Below are positions 16,336-23,768 of a stretch of 64,000 nucleotides of DNA, one piece after another. The notes under the pieces are model-generated. The model ran no database searches. It worked only from the letters and a program-made list of their open reading frames with translations, and was not told where the DNA came from. Source of the stretch: Ignavibacteriales bacterium (GTDB lineage Bacteria; Bacteroidota; Ignavibacteria; UBA10030; SZUA-254); contig JACRMQ010000005.1 of assembly GCA_016214905.1 (NCBI GenBank), positions 1-64,000 of the forward strand, given 5' to 3'. The translations under genes and the position numbers were made by a program. Each line of letters starts with the position of its first letter. The first letter of the stretch is position 1.

Positions 16336-17490
16336 ATGGACAATAAGTCAAACATATCATCGACCGATAATTCGACTGCATTAGTTATTGAACGGATCCA
16401 AAACAATAAATATCTGAACGAATTCATCCGTCTCCCTTGGCAGATTTACAAAGATTATCCTCATTGGATTCCCCCTCTCATGCGGGATGTGAGGTTCAAA
16501 TTAAATCAATCGAAACATCCTTTCTTCGAGCACGCAAAAATCGAATTATTCATCGCCAGACGAGGAACAACTATCGTCGGACGTATCGTTGCAATTGTTG
16601 ACAACCGTTACAACGAATTCCATAAAGAACGCACCGGATTTTTCGGTATGTTCGAGTGTTCCGAAGATTACGAAGCGGCTAAAGCATTATTCTCTTCCGC
16701 AGAAACATGGTGCAAAAATCAGGGCATGAACCGAATTCGAGGACCGATGAATTTAAGCATGAACGACGAATGTGGATTCCTACTTGAAGGTTTCGACCGC
16801 GATCCTGTTATGATGATGCCGTATAATCCAAAGTACTACCTTGAATTTTGCGAGAGGTACGGTTTTGTTAAAGCGAAAGATCTTTATGCCTTTCTGAAAA
16901 GCGACATAGGAGTAGTCGATCGGGTTGCGAAATTAGTAGAGCGGGTGAAGAAAAAAGAAAATGTTGTAGTCAGACCGGTTAACCTGAAAGATTTTAACAG
17001 CGAGGTAGCGATCATCAAAGATATATATAACGCGGCGTGGGAACTGAACTGGGGTTTTGTACCGATGACTGAAAAGGAAATGGATCTCATGGCGAAAGAA
17101 TTGAGACCCATTTGTGAACCGGAACTCGTTTTGTTTGCCGAAGTCAACGGAGAACCGGTAGGTGTAAGCATCACTCTTCCTGATATGAATCAGGTGTTGA
17201 AAAAGCTCAACGGAAAACTTGGCCCCATCGGTCTCTTAAAATTTCTCTATTACAAAAAGAAAATTACCGGGGCGCGGGCGATCGTGTTCGGCATTAAAAA
17301 AGAATACCGGCTCACCGGTATCAGCAGCGTGTTGTATTACGAGACAGTAAAGAGAGGTGCGCGATTAGGATACACTTGGTGCGAGATGTCGTGGAACCTC
17401 GAGGATAACGATCTGATCAATCGCTTCGATGAAGCTGTTGGCGGGAAACTGTACAAGAAATACAGAATTTATGAAAAAGAGCTTACCTGA
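16336..17490 (+). CDS. GNAT-like N-acyltransferase (YghO type)
   Basis: 384 residues. Seen: N-terminal FIRLPWQIYKDYPHWIPPLM, a first GNAT-like half with FFEHAKIELFIARRGTTIVGRI and GRIVAIVDNRYNEFHKERTGFFG (read in parts), the signature MNRIRGPMNLSMNDECG, and a second half ending KKEYRLTGISSVLYYETVKRG and LYKKYRIYEKELT. This layout is that of the YghO-like double-GNAT family found widely in FCB bacteria; the acyl substrate is unknown. The last 12 codons have a diverged duplicate at 20013-20048, see the accessory-zone finding. Confidence 0.85.
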   Translation: MDNKSNISSTDNSTALVIERIQNNKYLNEFIRLPWQIYKDYPHWIPPLMRDVRFKLNQSKHPFFEHAKIELFIARRGTTIVGRIVAIVDNRYNEFHKERTGFFGMFECSEDYEAAKALFSSAETWCKNQGMNRIRGPMNLSMNDECGFLLEGFDRDPVMMMPYNPKYYLEFCERYGFVKAKDLYAFLKSDIGVVDRVAKLVERVKKKENVVVRPVNLKDFNSEVAIIKDIYNAAWELNWGFVPMTEKEMDLMAKELRPICEPELVLFAEVNGEPVGVSITLPDMNQVLKKLNGKLGPIGLLKFLYYKKKITGARAIVFGIKKEYRLTGISSVLYYETVKRGARLGYTWCEMSWNLEDNDLINRFDEAVGGKLYKKYRIYEKELT

Positions 17491-17522
17491 TCTATTAGAT
17501 TAACGATGATAGCCTTGTAGTT

Positions 17523-17547
17523 TTAGGAATAGTTTGATTATTCCTAA
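17523..17547 (+). terminator. Hairpin after the GNAT-like gene
   Basis: Seen: ttaggaata (17523-17531) and tattcctaa (17539-17547) form a perfect 9-bp stem with a 7-base loop, 32 bases after the stop codon. No T run follows, so termination is weakly supported. A second 7-bp hairpin is at 17648-17667. The hairpin lies at the left edge of the accessory zone, so it could instead be part of an insertion boundary. Bases 17548-17727 show no gene. Confidence 0.4.
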
Positions 17548-17727
17548 GGTGCGCATAATTAAGTCCATAATATTCAAAACAAATTTGATAATTTTAAGTA
17601 TAATATGGAAGTTACTTGGAATAAAAATCTTTTCAATCATTGAAGTAATTGTTTGTAGTAAAACAATGAGCAAGCTAATAAAACCGCTACAACCCGGCAT
17701 TTGCGGAAAACCAAGGGGGGAAATCCA

Positions 17728-19992
17728 TTGAAAAAAATGAATCAAGAAAACATTCTAAAGAATGTCCTGGAATCATACCATAACCTTATCGAACATCTTA
17801 AACTTGGTGTTTATCGCAGTACACCCGGACCACAGGGAAAATTTCTCGAAGTCAATCCCGCCCTTTTAAAAATGCTTGGCTGCAAAAGCCGGAATGAACT
17901 CCTTAACCTTCCAATTTATCAATTTTATCAAAATCCCAAGGACAGGCGCCGGTTCAGTGAAAAACTATCCCGCAAGGGAGTTGTGTATAACGAAGAGTTG
18001 ATTCTTCGGCGAAAGAACGGTTCTCCCCTGATAGTCTCCGAGATAGCTGTTGCAGTTCGCGACAGCTATGGAAAAGTTTTATTTTTTGAAGGACTGGTGG
18101 AAGACATAACAAACCGTAAACAATCCAAGAGGCAGTTCGACCTTCAAAAAACATATCTTGAAAAACTCTTTAATGCGGCTCCGGAGGCAATCGCATTGCA
18201 TAATAACCATGACCGTATAGTAGACATCAATGATGAATTCACAAAGATGTTCGGGTACACTCGCGAAGAAGCAATAGGTAAACAAATAAATGAACTGGTA
18301 GCACCTGAAGAATTGCTTGAGGAGGCAAAAGATATTTCTCATCGTGTTATACTTGGAGAACGTATAGAATTAGAATCTAAAAGGAAGCGAAAAGACGGAG
18401 TTCTTATTGACGTATCGATTCTTGGAGCTCCGATTTTTCATCAGGGGAAACAGGTCGGCGATTATGCAATTTACCGAAATATCACGGAACGGAAAAAAGC
18501 GGAAGAAGAAATACGAATTCAGAAAACTTACATGGAAGGTCTACTTAACAGCGCACCCGAGGCAATTATTTTTCACGACACGAATGACATTGTAGTAAAT
18601 GTAAACAATGAGTTTCTCAAAATGTTCGGCTATACTCGCGAAGAAGCAATTAGTAAACCGATCAATTCACTCGTCGCTCCAATAGAATTGAAAGACGAAG
18701 CAGCAAAACTTTCAGACACCGTTATTCACGGACATCGAGTGGAGGTTGAAACAAAACGCCGGAAAAAAGACAACACATTATTTCACGTTTCAATTCTTGG
18801 AGCTCCAATCTTTCATCAAGGGAAGCAAATCGGTGTATTTGCGATTTATCGAGACATTTCGGATAGGAAAAGAACAGAAGAAGAAATCCTCATACAAAAA
18901 ATCTATTTCGAGCGATTATTCAACAGCGCCCCTGAAGCAATCTTACTGCACGACAATGATGATCGCGTAGTAAGTGTGAACGAGGAATTCGTGAGGATGT
19001 TCAACTACTCACGCGAAGAAGCAATCGGCCGTCCTGTGAACGAACTTGTTGCTCCGACTGAATTAATGGAGGAAGCAACTCGCTTTTCACAGATGAGTTT
19101 TAGAGGAGAGCGTGTAGATGCTGAGACAAAACGTAAGCGAAAAGATGGAACGCTCATTGATGTTTCTGTACTGGGTGCACCCGTTTTTCATGAAGGAAAA
19201 CAAATTGCTGTATACGCGATTTACCGGGATATCACTGAACACAAGAGATTAGAAGAGGAGCGCATTCGCGAGAAACAAGAAGCACAGATGGCAAGGGATA
19301 TACAATTAAACTTTTTACCTAAATCCAATCCGATAGTTCCGGGATATGATATTGCCGGGAAAAGTTTACCGGCTATGAATGTAGGCGGAGACTATTATGA
19401 TTTCATCCGGTTAAACGATCACCAAATTGCAATCGGGCTTGGTGATGTGAGCGGAAAAGGATTAGCGGCATCGCTGGTAATGGCAAACTTGCAAGCAACT
19501 ATTCGTAGTGAAGCATTGTATGGTTCTGACCCGGCACATTGTCTCGAACGGGCAAACAAACTTCTTTTTAACAGCACCGATGCACGGACTTTTATATCTC
19601 TATTTTATGGGATACTCGATACCGGTAACAACTCACTTATCTATGCTAATGCTGGTCAAGATCCTGCTGTCCTCTTTTCCGAAGCAAAGTCACCGATATC
19701 GTTATCGACTCGAGGTATGGCTCTCGCGTTGACAAACGATGCTGACTATAATGCTCGAACCATCTTTCTGAATCCGGGTGACTTCGTCATATTTTATTCT
19801 GACGGAATTACTGAAGCTGTGAATGACAAAATGGAAGAATTCGGGAGAAACCGAATTTGGGATCTTGTCATCAATAACAAAACAGAACCATCAGCCATAA
19901 TACTCGATAAGCTTTTCGATGCAGTTCATGGGCATGCAAACAACGGCTCAGATCAGGATGATATGACGGCAATTTTACTGAAACGCATTTGA
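17728..19992 (+). CDS. PAS-repeat PP2C (RsbU-type) phosphatase
   Basis: About 754 residues. I chose the TTG at 17728 because a strong GGGGGG lies 7 bases before it; an upstream TTG at 17701 lacks one. Seen: one PAS domain (about residues 15-130), then three more PAS domains repeated with an exact period of 375 bases (units beginning at 18148, 18523 and 18898), a short coiled linker, and a SpoIIE/RsbU PP2C domain with GGDYYDF, LGDVSGKGLAASL and IFYSDGITEAV carrying the metal-binding Asp residues. Such proteins dephosphorylate anti-sigma-factor antagonists; no partner gene is nearby. Cytoplasmic, no membrane helix. Lies between the GNAT-like gene and a displaced copy of that gene's 3' tail. Confidence 0.9.
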   Translation: MKKMNQENILKNVLESYHNLIEHLKLGVYRSTPGPQGKFLEVNPALLKMLGCKSRNELLNLPIYQFYQNPKDRRRFSEKLSRKGVVYNEELILRRKNGSPLIVSEIAVAVRDSYGKVLFFEGLVEDITNRKQSKRQFDLQKTYLEKLFNAAPEAIALHNNHDRIVDINDEFTKMFGYTREEAIGKQINELVAPEELLEEAKDISHRVILGERIELESKRKRKDGVLIDVSILGAPIFHQGKQVGDYAIYRNITERKKAEEEIRIQKTYMEGLLNSAPEAIIFHDTNDIVVNVNNEFLKMFGYTREEAISKPINSLVAPIELKDEAAKLSDTVIHGHRVEVETKRRKKDNTLFHVSILGAPIFHQGKQIGVFAIYRDISDRKRTEEEILIQKIYFERLFNSAPEAILLHDNDDRVVSVNEEFVRMFNYSREEAIGRPVNELVAPTELMEEATRFSQMSFRGERVDAETKRKRKDGTLIDVSVLGAPVFHEGKQIAVYAIYRDITEHKRLEEERIREKQEAQMARDIQLNFLPKSNPIVPGYDIAGKSLPAMNVGGDYYDFIRLNDHQIAIGLGDVSGKGLAASLVMANLQATIRSEALYGSDPAHCLERANKLLFNSTDARTFISLFYGILDTGNNSLIYANAGQDPAVLFSEAKSPISLSTRGMALALTNDADYNARTIFLNPGDFVIFYSDGITEAVNDKMEEFGRNRIWDLVINNKTEPSAIILDKLFDAVHGHANNGSDQDDMTAILLKRI

Positions 19993-20012
19993 TAACATTT
20001 GGATGTACACCT

Positions 20013-20048
20013 TACAATAAATACCGGATTTATGAAAAGGAACTTTGA
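20013..20048 (+). pseudogene. Displaced 3' tail of a GNAT-like gene
   Basis: Seen: the codons here read PYNKYRIYEKEL-stop, against LYKKYRIYEKELT-stop at the end of the intact gene at 17490. About 27 of 32 aligned bases match and several differences are synonymous (aga/cgg, gag/gaa, aaa/aag). It starts 20 bases after the phosphatase stop codon. It is a relic of the end of a related gene, not of the resident copy by recent duplication. Confidence 0.7.
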
Positions 20049-20082
20049 TATTACGGATAGCTACTCATACATCGTCCCCTTC

Positions 20083-20102
20083 CCTGCCTGCCAGCAGGCA
20101 GG
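20083..20102. repeat. Short perfect palindrome
   Basis: Seen: cctgcctgc (20083-20091) and gcaggcagg (20094-20102) around two bases, inside a larger imperfect pair ccccttcc / gaaagggga. It resembles small dispersed palindromes. The rest of 20049-20378 shows no gene that I can support; one ORF of 37 codons (20235-20348) lacks a ribosome binding site. Confidence 0.5.
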
Positions 20103-20378
20103 TCTAATTTTAGAGAAAGGGGAGCGTTTGGGTGGAGGTTGAGTTCAATTAATTCTCCACCCGGATTTTCAAACAATATATTTCTTAAACGAGTGGTTGC
20201 AATTTAAATATGAGTGTTGTACATTCAAATCGAAATGAAAATTATAAATAATATGGAGGACACTCTAGTTTTGGGAAAGGTACTCATCACAGAAAATCCA
20301 ATAATCGTGGCATTTATAAACGGGAAAAAAGAATTGTTAATACATTAGTTATATGATATGCCGCTCGGATAAACAGTT

Positions 20379-21275
20379 ATGAATGGTAAATGTCTTCTTT
20401 GTTCAAAGAACAGGACACTCATATTAAGCCACATTATTGCCAAGTTCGTTTTTGCTTACTTGAAAGAATCTGCCCCAAGTGCTATACGTACAGTTTCTGT
20501 ACCAAATCAACGAGTCCAAGATGGAATCAAAGATTACCTACTATGTGGAGAATGCGAGCAACTTTTTGGAACATGGGAAAAAGCTTTTTCTGAGTGTATC
20601 TTCCTCCCATTGCACGACCCATCGCCAATGACTTCTCCTATTCGATATGAATCGTGGGCAATCAAATTTGCAGTCTCAGTTTCATGGAGAGTATTACATC
20701 ATTACTTAGAAACCGCTTCATCGGAGTTTACTGAAAAACAGATGGAGTATACTAGACGTGCTTTCACAGCTTGGCGTTCATTTCTTCTAGAAAAACAAAA
20801 ACATCCAGGTGAATTCGAACAACATCTATTACTTTTAGATACGGTCGAAAACCATACGGCGAGCGATACATCTCCATTCTTGAACCGTTATTTCTTAAGG
20901 ACGATTCACATGGATTTACTAACAACTGATACATCCATCATGATTTACACCAAGATGTGCCGTATTATTATTTTTGGCTTTATACGTCAGAATAATTCAA
21001 ATAGATGGAAAGGAACAAAATTACATATCAACCATGGCACGATAGTTCCAAGAACAAGATATATTATACCGGCTGGCTTAGCTGCTTATTTTAATGAGAA
21101 AGCGGACGAAGCAAAGGCTGCATTGAATTCTTTATCACCAAATCAAGAACGCAAAGTTGAAAACGCAATTAAACAGAATCTTGATGGAATTGCAAATTCA
21201 GAGATATTTCGTGCAATAGCATCAGATTTTGCTCAATCTGGAACAAAAGCATTCAAGGAACAGAAGAAACGATAA
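20379..21275 (+). CDS. Zinc-finger/HNH-like protein of accessory regions
   Basis: 298 residues. Seen: an N-terminal metal-binding unit with C5xxC8, LILSHIIAKFVF (H18) and DYLLCGECEQLFG (C56xxC59), as in treble-clef HNH-related proteins, followed by about 230 residues without recognisable motifs. The CxxC...SHI.(P/A)KF...CxxCE arrangement recurs in a widespread uncharacterised family, often in variable regions. The first H of an HNH site is present but I cannot place the later catalytic residues, so nuclease activity is not established. No Shine-Dalgarno sequence. It stands alone between two relics of the flanking genes. Confidence 0.7.
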   Translation: MNGKCLLCSKNRTLILSHIIAKFVFAYLKESAPSAIRTVSVPNQRVQDGIKDYLLCGECEQLFGTWEKAFSECIFLPLHDPSPMTSPIRYESWAIKFAVSVSWRVLHHYLETASSEFTEKQMEYTRRAFTAWRSFLLEKQKHPGEFEQHLLLLDTVENHTASDTSPFLNRYFLRTIHMDLLTTDTSIMIYTKMCRIIIFGFIRQNNSNRWKGTKLHINHGTIVPRTRYIIPAGLAAYFNEKADEAKAALNSLSPNQERKVENAIKQNLDGIANSEIFRAIASDFAQSGTKAFKEQKKR

Positions 21276-21403
21276 AAGGCTAAACAAATACATCGAACTT
21301 TTATGAACGGTATATAACATAACACTATGTACCCATTCCGTTCGTGCGTCATTGCGCGTGCACGGCTTGTGCACCTTGTTTACGCTACATGCCCTTCATC
21401 TTA
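21276..21403. other. GC-richer spacer with gtgcac palindromes
   Basis: No gene seen. Between about 21341 and 21400 the composition is GC-richer than the surroundings and includes gtgcac-ggctt-gtgcac. An integron attC site was considered and not supported (see rejected). It ends at the tandem stop codons of the flippase relic. Confidence 0.35.
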
Positions 21404-21520
21404 TTACCTACTCTTCCAAAGTCTTTCCATTACAGAAATCTCTCCTGCTTTAAAAAACCTCATCAAATACATCAGCATCAAGAAAAGTACAATCAGGAAT
21501 ATATTCCAAAGAAAAACTAT
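21404..21520 (-). pseudogene. Displaced 3' tail of a flippase gene
   Basis: Seen on the minus strand: 38 sense codons and a stop (TAA TAA) that match the C-terminal part of the intact flippase at 22260-23768; 29 of 38 residues are identical (e.g. IFLIVLFLMLMYLM) and about 84% of bases. The intact gene continues 12 residues further, so this relic has its own C-terminus and comes from a related, not identical, gene. It lies in the same orientation as the intact gene, about 890 bases away, with the toxin-antitoxin pair between. Confidence 0.8.
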
Positions 21521-21581
21521 CTCCTGCCAAGTTGTAGAAATCCGAAAGTTTGCTTATGTTTTATATGAAAGGAGAAATGAT

Positions 21582-21806
21582 ATGACAGTTCAGCAGATAG
21601 AAAAACAGGTATTAAAATTAGATGCATATTCTCGTGCAAAGCTTGCAAGCAAGCTTCTATCAAGTCTTGACGAACTTTCCGACGTAGAAAATGAAAAATT
21701 ATGGACAGAAGAAGCAATCCGTCGACACAACGAGCTATCGAGCGGTAAAGCGAAACCCAGGTCAGCGAAAGTAGTATTCATGAATGCACGAGCACGACTG
21801 AAATGA
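21582..21806 (+). CDS. Antitoxin of the addiction-module component family
   Basis: 74 residues. The start is set by GGAG 7 bases before the ATG at 21582; a longer reading frame runs upstream but crosses the flippase relic. Seen: TVQQIEKQVLKLDAYSRAKLASKLLSSLDE, read in parts, which matches the small helical antitoxins of the putative addiction module component family (TIGR02574). It would bind and neutralise the toxin encoded next and repress its own promoter. The stop overlaps the toxin ATG by 4 bases. Confidence 0.85.
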   Translation: MTVQQIEKQVLKLDAYSRAKLASKLLSSLDELSDVENEKLWTEEAIRRHNELSSGKAKPRSAKVVFMNARARLK

Positions 21807-22105
21807 TTAAAACTGTTTCATTTCACGAAATGGCAGAGTTAGAGTTGTATGAAGCCGCGAAATATTATGAATCACAAGCGTCTGGTCTAGGATTAGTCTT
21901 TCTCAATGAAGTCAAGCATGCCACAAAAGCTATTCAACAAAATCCCGAATCATCCCCACGAATCTTAAAAATTGTTCATCGAAAATTATTACGGCGTTTT
22001 CCGTACAGCATAATGTACTCTATCATAGATGAATCAATTTATATCCTGGCAATAGCGAATCAAAAACGACGTCCGTTTTATTGGCGGAATCGGAAAGAAA
22101 CCTAG
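21803..22105 (+). CDS. RelE/ParE-type toxin
   Basis: 100 residues. Seen: FHEMAELELYEAAKYYESQ, LGLVFLNEV, PESSPRIL, RKLLRRFPYSIMYSI and the end IANQKRRPFYWRNR, the pattern of ParE/RelE toxins paired with TIGR02574 antitoxins. The target (gyrase or mRNA in the ribosome) cannot be told from sequence. ATGA overlap with the antitoxin gives coupled translation. The pair is convergent with the flippase gene, 154 bases away. Confidence 0.9.
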   Translation: MIKTVSFHEMAELELYEAAKYYESQASGLGLVFLNEVKHATKAIQQNPESSPRILKIVHRKLLRRFPYSIMYSIIDESIYILAIANQKRRPFYWRNRKET

Positions 22106-22259
22106 AAGAATAAATAATTTATTGTCTTACCCTCCTTCAAAGTTACTTTATAACAAAGATATCTTTTCTTTTATAAACTTCCTTACTTAATTTAAAGCAA
22201 GGGTATACCCTAATAATCCATTTGCAATAATAAGGATATAATCTTACAATACGCCGCGC

Positions 22260-23768
22260 TTAAATACTATCAGAAATATCACTAACTCCTTTTTCTTCTC
22301 TCCTGTTCCAGAGTTTTTTTATTACAGAAATTTCTCCCGTTTTAAAAAACTTCATCAAATACATCAGCATTAAGAAAAGCACAATCAAAAATATTTTCCA
22401 GAGAAAACCAATTACCGCCGTGCCGGACAACGCCTCAACCGGCATGAAATAATATAACATTATCACGACCGATGCCGAACTGGTAACCTTAAGCAAGCGG
22501 CTGAACTCATAGTTCACCGGATATATACGCTGGACAACGATATACATAGTCACAGCCATGATGAAGTAAGCAATAAACGTTGCCCACGCCGCACCCAACA
22601 TTCCGAAAGGAGGAATCAATAGAAAGTTTGCCGCGACATTCACAAAAGCGCCAATACCTGTAACAAGAGGTGAATACTTGGTTTTCTTCTCAATATAAAT
22701 TCCCGCTGAGAGATTTGTAGAGATGCCGAGGAATAAATAACCAAGCAAGACAACCGGCACAATATTCAAACCACTCCAGTAACTTTGTCCGATTATATGC
22801 CTGCCGAAAATACTGATCTTCGCAAAATCTCCGATGAAGAAAGTCAGCACTAAAAAGATTGCCGACATAAACAGGACAAGATAAGTCAGCACGCGCGCGA
22901 AGATTTCTTTCGCATTCGCTTCTTTAGACATCGAAAAATAAAATGGTCTCCATGCATAATCGTACATTGAAACAATCAACATCATGAAAATTCCTAACCG
23001 GTAATTCGCCTGATAGATTCCAACGGTCGCATCATCCGTAAGCGCGCGGAGAATTGGCCGATCAATAACTTGGATTGCCATTGCCGCAAGTCCCGACGGA
23101 ATATACGGTAATCCGAACTTCATCAGTGCCTTCCAGAGCGGCAGGTTGAATTCTTCTGTGAGATAACGGAATATTGTCGGCATCAGTATCAATACCGTCA
23201 GTGCAGAAGCGGCAAGTCCGCTTATGAACACTCCAATCACACCCATCCTGAAGACGAGAAGAAGAATGAGATTCATTCCCACATTCACAACTATGTTAAG
23301 AAACTTGATCGTCGCGAACAGTTTCGCTTTGTGCTCCATCCTCAGCGCCGCGAACGGAATGATTGCAATCGCATCGAATGCTAAAATGCCTACTGTATAA
23401 AGCAGGATCGATTCATATTCTATCGGAACATTTATCATTTTCAATATCGGCGATGCGAGTAAAGCGAGTACCATTGAAAAAATAAACGACGTACCAAGAA
23501 GCGATATGAACGGTGTACTGAAATTTTGCTTTGCTGTTCCAATCTCCAGTGTTGATGAATATTTAAAATACGCAGATTCCATCCCGTAAGAATAAAAGAC
23601 ATTAACGAAAGCGATCAGGGAATAAACATAAGCAACAATCCCGTAATCGCCCGGGGCAAGAACGTTTGTATAAAACGGAACGAGAAGAAAATTAAGGAAG
23701 CGGCCGAGAATGGTGCTTATGCCGTAAATTGCCGTCTCGGTTCCGAGTCGCTTAATTTGCTGAAACAT
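22260..23768 (-). CDS. Polysaccharide flippase (MATE/Wzx-like)
   Basis: 502 residues with about 14 membrane helices. Seen: N-terminal MFQQIKRLGTETAIYGIST followed by ILGRFLNFLLVPFYTNVLAPGDYGIVAYV, read in parts, typical of polysaccharide biosynthesis exporters that move lipid-linked sugars across the inner membrane. A second flippase is in the cluster at 39291, so this one may handle another glycan. The ATG follows the nadC stop codon directly. The 3' end is a duplication boundary: a diverged copy of its C-terminal region is at 21404-21520. Confidence 0.88.
   Translation of the reverse strand: MFQQIKRLGTETAIYGISTILGRFLNFLLVPFYTNVLAPGDYGIVAYVYSLIAFVNVFYSYGMESAYFKYSSTLEIGTAKQNFSTPFISLLGTSFIFSMVLALLASPILKMINVPIEYESILLYTVGILAFDAIAIIPFAALRMEHKAKLFATIKFLNIVVNVGMNLILLLVFRMGVIGVFISGLAASALTVLILMPTIFRYLTEEFNLPLWKALMKFGLPYIPSGLAAMAIQVIDRPILRALTDDATVGIYQANYRLGIFMMLIVSMYDYAWRPFYFSMSKEANAKEIFARVLTYLVLFMSAIFLVLTFFIGDFAKISIFGRHIIGQSYWSGLNIVPVVLLGYLFLGISTNLSAGIYIEKKTKYSPLVTGIGAFVNVAANFLLIPPFGMLGAAWATFIAYFIMAVTMYIVVQRIYPVNYEFSRLLKVTSSASVVIMLYYFMPVEALSGTAVIGFLWKIFLIVLFLMLMYLMKFFKTGEISVIKKLWNRREEKGVSDISDSI

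Follow-up and report, generated by a model that had tools for sequence, protein, structure and literature searches.

Incoming gene ends that push aside a resident one are known from rhs loci, where C-terminal displacement leaves the former end of the gene downstream, in strings, and where a circular-intermediate model has been set out for rhs tips (Jackson et al. 2009, PMC2935791). In Vibrio cholerae, orphan immunity arrays of the type VI secretion system (T6SS) are described as products of sequential insertion beside one gene, with older content shifted back, in one described case an effector 3' end; homology-facilitated illegitimate recombination is proposed there (Kirchberger et al. 2017, PMC5361080). 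Integrases were reported in 45% of the hotspots of another study, with 27% being without integrases and transposases (Oliveira et al. 2017, PMC5635113). Cis-mobilizable elements (CIMEs) accrete in tandem where a target gene ends, every layer being delimited by an att site that contains this gene end (PMC5704250). Here we analyse a stretch of 64,000 nt (the window) from an Ignavibacteriales genome of 3.3 Mb (G000; contig C5, JACRMQ010000005.1), in which a GNAT-family acetyltransferase gene and a polysaccharide flippase gene converge on a gap that holds cargo genes and displaced copies of the 3' ends of both anchors, here called relics. The evidence inclines us to read this gap as a clade-specific cargo hotspot that grows by serial gene-end displacement through the cell's own homologous recombination, without a recombinase.

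The mechanism that we favour is in essence the circular-intermediate model of rhs (PMC2935791). However, the displaced rhs tip is itself the variable domain, whereas the ends displaced here are the constant ends of ordinary genes, with an unrelated operon between them and with two anchors. The payload of the T6SS arrays is the site's own effector-immunity pair (PMC5361080), and that of the present site consists of PP2C, methylase, toxin-antitoxin, Fic and HNH-like genes. Integrase-free hotspots resemble it in having variable cargo between conserved genes, no mobility gene and recombination in a flanking gene; their model is a double crossover in both flanks, and displaced gene ends and stacking, both present here, are not described in the accessible part of that source (PMC5635113). 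The tandem layers at a gene end recall CIME accretion (PMC5704250), but CIMEs need an integrase and att cores, whereas our site contigs are without a tyrosine integrase and the layer boundaries vary. The portions of the literature that we searched contained no example of such displacement at ordinary genes in which the cargo is unrelated.

Displaced ends of the two anchor genes

Close orthologues of the GNAT gene were found in G001 (91%), G006 (89%) and, as two pieces, G010 (83% and 97%) among 60 genomes, G000 included, and close orthologues of the flippase gene (87-89%) in G001, G002 and G006 in searches of 14 and 15 genomes. The corresponding loci are referred to as L046 (G001), L048 (G006) and L049 (G002). 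Gene order and coordinates in the window agree with an earlier reading made from the sequence alone (the sequence-only reading). RNA or tRNA as the insertion target was ruled out, as the window has no Rfam match at the gathering threshold and no tRNA.

Relic B, the clearest of the displaced ends, corresponds to the flippase gene from about nt 1336 onward: 21394-21520 matches 22286-22412 over 127 nt at 81% without gaps, or over 108 nt at 85% by BLAST. A profile built from the last 400 nt of each of four resident flippase genes recovered it at 21401-21542 (E=3.4e-30), together with a weak match, relic A, at 22122-22183 (E=0.81), two relics in G002 (L049 2379-2489, E=3.2e-18, and 2754-2817, E=1.3e-8) and one in G006 (L048 1459-1530, E=2.4e-13), which brings the flippase relics at this site to five, with relic A of G000 weak when taken alone. 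When relic A of G000 was compared with the four resident tails, 26, 29, 87 and 0 of 1000 shuffles were equally good, and none of 1000 equalled its match to relic A of G006. A 22-nt trace in the G001 gap, beside the upstream region of the mobile mystery protein A gene (mmpA), is suggestive: 20 nt of it match relic B of G002, and whole-gap shuffles were as good in 1 of 300 cases for that relic and in 7 of 300 for relic B of G000. As in the arrays cited above, the displaced 3' ends lie in the orientation of the gene, beside its intact copy. They are not a polymorphic payload, the tails being homologous ends of one flippase and the payload being separate.

The GNAT relic lies, by eye, some 25 nt behind the PP2C stop codon. 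Self-comparison of the GNAT tail aligned 19999-20045 with 17438-17484 (47 nt, 77%), and the core at 20013-20045 is 85% identical to the resident end and 91% to the GNAT ends of G006 and G010. Over its nine codons, there are zero amino acid differences from the resident. A GNAT profile found this single relic (G000 20001-20046, E=2.9e-4), and its score was equalled by none of 300 dinucleotide shuffles of 17491-20400. The identity of about 84% given for both relics in the sequence-only reading thus holds for the best-matching cores, 85% in each case. Its inventory of relics was right as to the GNAT and flippase tails, and it missed relic A and the fossil upstream region next to it, which together span 22122-22246.

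Tail copies are rare outside this site. A baseline was drawn from 847 genes at 69 loci, some fetched twice; 836 genes with at least 200 nt downstream were searched at E<=1e-4, 577 of them with the full 6 kb. Copies were found here for the flippase and GNAT genes of G000 and for the flippase genes of G002 and G006, and elsewhere for two genes of L117, for one locus picked for its mobile mystery A/B pair (L151, contig 22 of G004) and at L068, L075 and L079. In G004, the mystery A/B genes have a DUF454 gene on one side and, on the other, a displaced copy of that gene's 3' end of 83 nt and 90% identity (L151 5049-5131, 5155-6236 and 6329-6691), with differences that are, by eye, mostly synonymous; this is a second case of gene-end displacement in the same family. 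The copies at L068, L075 and L079 lie within 220 nt downstream of the gene with no cargo between, and would suit an origin by local tandem duplication, in which the copied gene ends decay neutrally and the cargo arrives on its own. For the present site we hold that explanation to be highly improbable: cargo separates relic and gene each time, and relic B differs from its own resident by as much as other species do, has a low pN/pS and is synonymously nearest to G001.

These divergence values are proportions of synonymous (pS) and nonsynonymous (pN) differences over 40 codons with about 23 synonymous sites; a forced 'relic A' of G001 was left out of the counts. Relic B differs from the resident tail of G000 by a pS of 0.44 and a pN of 0.13, and residents of different species differ pairwise by 0.36-0.61 and 0.07-0.14; its lowest pS, 0.20, is to the congener G001. 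Relic B of G000 and the GNAT relic still read in frame. Relic B of G002 and the relics A are decayed, with a pN of 0.26-0.46 to the residents and in-frame stops or frameshifts. Because the values of relic B resemble those between residents, we take it that relic B and the GNAT tails diverged mostly within working genes before they came to adjoin. An origin of the displaced ends in other lineages, and not by local duplication, is thus supported with moderate strength, the sequences being short.

The resident flippase genes carry a trace of exchange as well. G001 and G006 differ by 12.3% over nt 1-1334 and by 27.4% over the last 175 nt (nt 1335-1509), with the best breakpoint at nt 1335 (support 1263-1337) and none of 2000 codon permutations as extreme; G000 and G006 show a weaker shift at nt 1283 (p=0.0040). 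Recombination in a flanking core gene, as at integrase-free hotspots, is therefore seen here. The breakpoint at nt 1335 coincides with the start of relic B and links cargo insertion to exchange of the flippase tail, leaving the enzyme unspecified. As to a fixed att core common to the layers, the relics start about 175, 95 and 47 nt before the stop; decay may have shortened some, and nt 1335 recurs.

Variable cargo and the order of the layers

The cargo differs in each of the four GNAT-flippase gaps, a variable content between conserved genes like that of integrase-free hotspots. That of G001 holds an N6/N4 methylase, an unmatched 342-aa open reading frame (ORF), a helix-turn-helix protein and mobile mystery proteins A/B; that of G006, DUF4145 and DGQHR proteins and an unmatched 372-aa ORF across the contig break; and that of G002, three unmatched ORFs, an antitoxin without its toxin, and mystery protein B with a truncated A. 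The 342-aa ORF of G001 (L046 5146-6174) lies between the methylase and helix-turn-helix genes, has no Pfam, NCBIfam, PADLOC or PHROG match, and is by context a candidate restriction endonuclease. Eleven more distant flippase loci, picked from those at hand, look different: seven share a conserved downstream gene pair, three have other genes and one is too short, so that the site seems to have become variable within this clade.

Several junctions common to these gaps allow the layers to be ordered. The junction of relic B and the antitoxin is common to G000 and G002 (88.6% over 342 nt), and in a tree the relics B of the two genomes are joined (91% ultrafast bootstrap) to the exclusion of the G002 resident; the toxin-antitoxin layer is therefore old. 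The mystery proteins A/B (TIGR02612/TIGR02613) form another older layer, found in G001 and also in G002, where A is truncated. In G000, a stretch beside the flippase (22199-22246) is 93.8% identical over 48 nt to that just upstream of mmpA in G001, and G006 also keeps the mmpA upstream region (92% over 50 nt); the mystery B profile has no match in G000, and in G006 only a weak one on another contig. Because the upstream region has been kept and mystery B is absent at the site, the A/B operon was probably deleted in both genomes.

The third shared element is a leader, present in one copy each in G000, G002 and G006 (3 of 20 genomes). In G006 it lies about 107 nt behind the intact GNAT gene, and in G000 behind the displaced GNAT tail, which indicates that insertion of PP2C separated GNAT from what used to follow it. 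The PP2C layer was seen in G000 only, G001 and G006 carrying other sequence behind GNAT. By eye, the leader is possibly a promoter with a short 5' remnant of an older gene, and it may act as the promoter that expresses whichever cargo occupies the site. It precedes different cargo genes in the three genomes, with a possible conserved start of 13 codons. The idea that the leader is a repeated, integron-like element was rejected, as the three genomes that have it, out of 20, carry it only once each. The repeats of the site are gene ends.

At least three steps thus brought in the cargo: toxin-antitoxin and mystery A/B at the flippase (older, shared) and PP2C at GNAT (seen in G000 only). The ancestral stack probably ran leader, cargo, relic B, toxin-antitoxin, relic A, mystery A/B and flippase, followed by lineage-specific loss and cargo exchange. 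The sequence-only reading had called the site a hotspot with one cargo set per layer and 3'-end relics, which the variable cargo of the sister genomes supports. It had offered two origins for the inner block. The first, in which the entire GNAT-to-flippase block of a related strain was inserted into the resident gap, would account for the mirror-image layout and for tails that are 77-91% identical, but the leader lies behind an intact GNAT gene in G006, and relic B with the antitoxin is common to G002, which makes the inner block long-standing resident content, with outer layers of different ages. The proof put forward for such a donor block, a genome in which matching tails enclose the HNH-like gene and nothing else, was not found, the other three gaps being without that gene. 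We regard this origin as the least probable of those considered here. The second, separate insertions at 3' ends, is what the stepwise layers support: the leader, the relic B-antitoxin junction and a PP2C gene found only in G000.

Proposed homologous recombination and competing explanations

In the mechanism that we propose, a cargo operon would move together with a piece of the 3' end of its anchor gene. The donor would carry, in order, the gene body, a second tail, the cargo and the old first tail. Two exchanges, one in the gene body (or tail) and one in the displaced tail, or a single crossover with a circle that bears cargo and tail, would leave the recipient with a working gene with a new tail, the cargo, and its own old tail pushed outward as a relic. 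Content beyond would stay in place, so that layers would stack with the newest nearest the gene. The stack described above, bounded by GNAT on the left, would since have undergone deletions in each lineage and, in G000, the addition of PP2C behind GNAT. The exchange would depend on RecA rather than on a site-specific enzyme, with a circle or double-crossover intermediate, and illegitimate joining would be the birth of each cassette. Homologous recombination is favoured because two anchor genes were used, the boundaries vary, and the site contigs are without a tyrosine integrase: none of the PF00589 matches (9 in G000, 5 in G001, 8 in G002 and 4 in G006) lies on a site contig. The earlier statement that no recombinase is present thus stands for tyrosine integrases; serine recombinases were not searched.

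The main competitor is site-specific integration into gene 3' ends with later loss of the recombinase, in the manner of CIME accretion, the layers being decayed or trans-mobilized elements whose att site carried a replacement gene end. A displaced gene end beside a restored gene is the classical outcome of site-specific integration, and relic B starts where the breakpoint at nt 1335 lies. All four genomes encode tyrosine integrases elsewhere. Tandem accretion of CIMEs has precedent (PMC5704250). Less easily accommodated are the use of two unrelated anchor genes side by side and the scatter of boundaries: relic A starts about 75 nt closer to the stop than relic B does, and the distance from relic start to stop is about 47 nt for the GNAT relic and 83 nt for the DUF454 relic. 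The ORFs scanned in the four gaps included no recognizable integrase, relaxase or structural phage gene, and no recombinase gene or remnant matching PF00589 was found on the site contigs of the four genomes. We consider this explanation unlikely, though not negligible.

The varying inner boundaries would also suit one-sided, homology-facilitated illegitimate recombination at every step, anchored in the gene tail and joined without homology at its other end, with no reusable tail-flanked cassette; such a process was put forward for T6SS effector-immunity arrays in which effector 3' ends had been displaced (PMC5361080). By itself it does not predict that an old tail survives beside new cargo, and it overlaps with the mechanism that we favour, since each layer could have begun with such an event. 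As the sole process it appears improbable to us.

Several points weigh against recombinase-free displacement by homologous recombination. The pS difference of relic B rests on its roughly 23 synonymous sites. A strong shift of divergence appears in only one of the six flippase pairs (G001-G006), four others giving p>0.1, and the coincidence of nt 1335 with the relic boundary fits a site-specific crossover as well. Supports in the flippase-body tree are only 50 and 43. The G006 site spans two contigs, and the GNAT side of G002 is unassembled. The relics are about 47-150 nt long and are now 77-91% identical, a length and identity near or below what RecA uses well. The circle, the dependence on RecA and the transfer are inferred. 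The mystery A/B pairs, finally, are not clearly enriched for flanking repeats.

The retained anchor ends let insertion order and origin be read, and the site makes 'recombination at flanking genes' a concrete, testable step. A bolder extension, which we put forward tentatively and think doubtful, is that two copies of a gene 3' end turn the cargo between them into a mobile unit that needs nothing else. The displaced tail would provide the second homology arm, and any cell with the gene could take up the cargo through ordinary homologous recombination, regardless of the content beyond. In that case ordinary gene ends would work like attachment sites that need no recombinase, used by small defence and toxin-antitoxin operons, and the relic tails would be a fossil record of the insertions. 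Were tail-flanked cassettes general, unknown defence and addiction operons without a mobility gene could be sought by way of displaced gene ends.

Cargo genes and mobile mystery loci elsewhere

The features of the window are listed in Table 1.

Table 1. Anchor genes, relics and cargo of the GNAT-flippase site, in window coordinates
Feature	Position	Strand	Basis
GNAT-family acetyltransferase, left anchor	16336..17490	+	Pfam Acetyltransf_1
PAS-SpoIIE/PP2C phosphatase, between GNAT and displaced GNAT tail	17701..19992, ATG at 17737	+	Pfam PAS, SpoIIE
Displaced GNAT 3' end, in frame, KYRIYEKEL + stop	20013..20048	+	Self-comparison, profile, shuffles
Old GNAT-downstream leader	20193..20298	+	88% identity, common to G006 and G002 upstream of other cargo
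Cargo, 298-aa protein, HNH-like by motif only (CxxC...SHI...CxxC)	20379..21275	+	phrog_26326, motif alignment
Relic B, displaced flippase 3' end, gene nt ~1336 onward	21394..21542	-	Self-comparison, profile; also G002 L049 2379-2489
Antitoxin (Unstab_antitox)	21582..21806	+	Family match; relic-antitoxin junction also in G002
ParE-like toxin	21803..22105	+	PDB 8c26 ParE2, E=4e-5
Relic A, degenerate displaced flippase 3' end	22122..22183	-	Weak alone; supported via G006 relic A
Fossil upstream region of probably deleted mobile mystery protein A/B operon	22199..22246	.	G001 L046 4612-4659
Polysaccharide flippase, right anchor	22260..23768	-	Pfam Polysacc_synt

The functions assigned to the cargo are predictions from family names. 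The closest relative of the PP2C phosphatase among 15 genomes is in G007 (58-62%). For the 298-aa protein, the HNH-like label of the sequence-only reading is borne out as a motif resemblance and not as a family assignment: the protein has no Pfam or NCBIfam family, matches no HNH family model, and gives only weak GajA and BrxC matches in PADLOC (best E=7e-4). It is instead matched over its full length by phrog_26326, a phage-protein family of unknown function (E=9e-51). The protein was matched in 9 of 395 Bacteroidota genomes, its own included. Phage and plasmid records yielded one phage, at 33% over a third of the query, and nine plasmid matches below 60% identity, and no confirmed viral contig was found among the matches; a phage source is possible because the family also occurs in phages.

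The toxin gene overlaps that of the antitoxin and both partners are homologous to known ones, as in ParE-type modules; the toxin has no Pfam match, and its assignment comes from one PDB match only. The pair may stabilize the site, as the sequence-only reading suggested. That it can be lost is shown by G002, where the toxin ORF is missing, and by the gap of G001, where the pair was not found. Further copies of the same module lie at a second place in G006 (contig 23, L149 4294-4872) and G002 (contig 156, L150 3659-4237). On contig 23 of G006, a small PEMT/ICMT-type methyltransferase gene lies between two 57-nt copies (one at L149 3777-3833) of the upstream region of the module, a similar signature with a different anchor.

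Mobile mystery proteins A/B as the driver of displacement were considered and rejected, an early excess having vanished with 3-kb flanks and same-locus controls. With flanks of about 1-1.5 kb, direct repeats at E<1e-7 were found at 5 of 30 loci (G004 among them) and in none of 491 random controls, 11 of which had repeats at E<=0.01. With 3-kb flanks and E<=1e-5, repeats occurred at 6 of 35 mystery A/B loci (4 of 32 without this site and G004), in 7 of 72 same-locus control segments and in 3 of 215 control segments from other loci; the 35 loci represent 33 of the 34 genomes over the cut-off (G017 omitted), with G001 and G002 added. At L157/L214 and L164/L192, the repeats are, by eye, intergenic and not at recognizable gene ends. 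At L192 (G276) and L214 (G160), mystery A/B lie between imperfect intergenic repeats of 53-148 nt, which at L192 recur elsewhere in the locus and possibly belong to an attC-like or other cassette array. At L190 (G356 contig 4), near the contig end, mystery A/B are flanked by a 663-nt direct duplication of 91% identity, 46-708 nt after mmpB and 648-1310 nt before mmpA.

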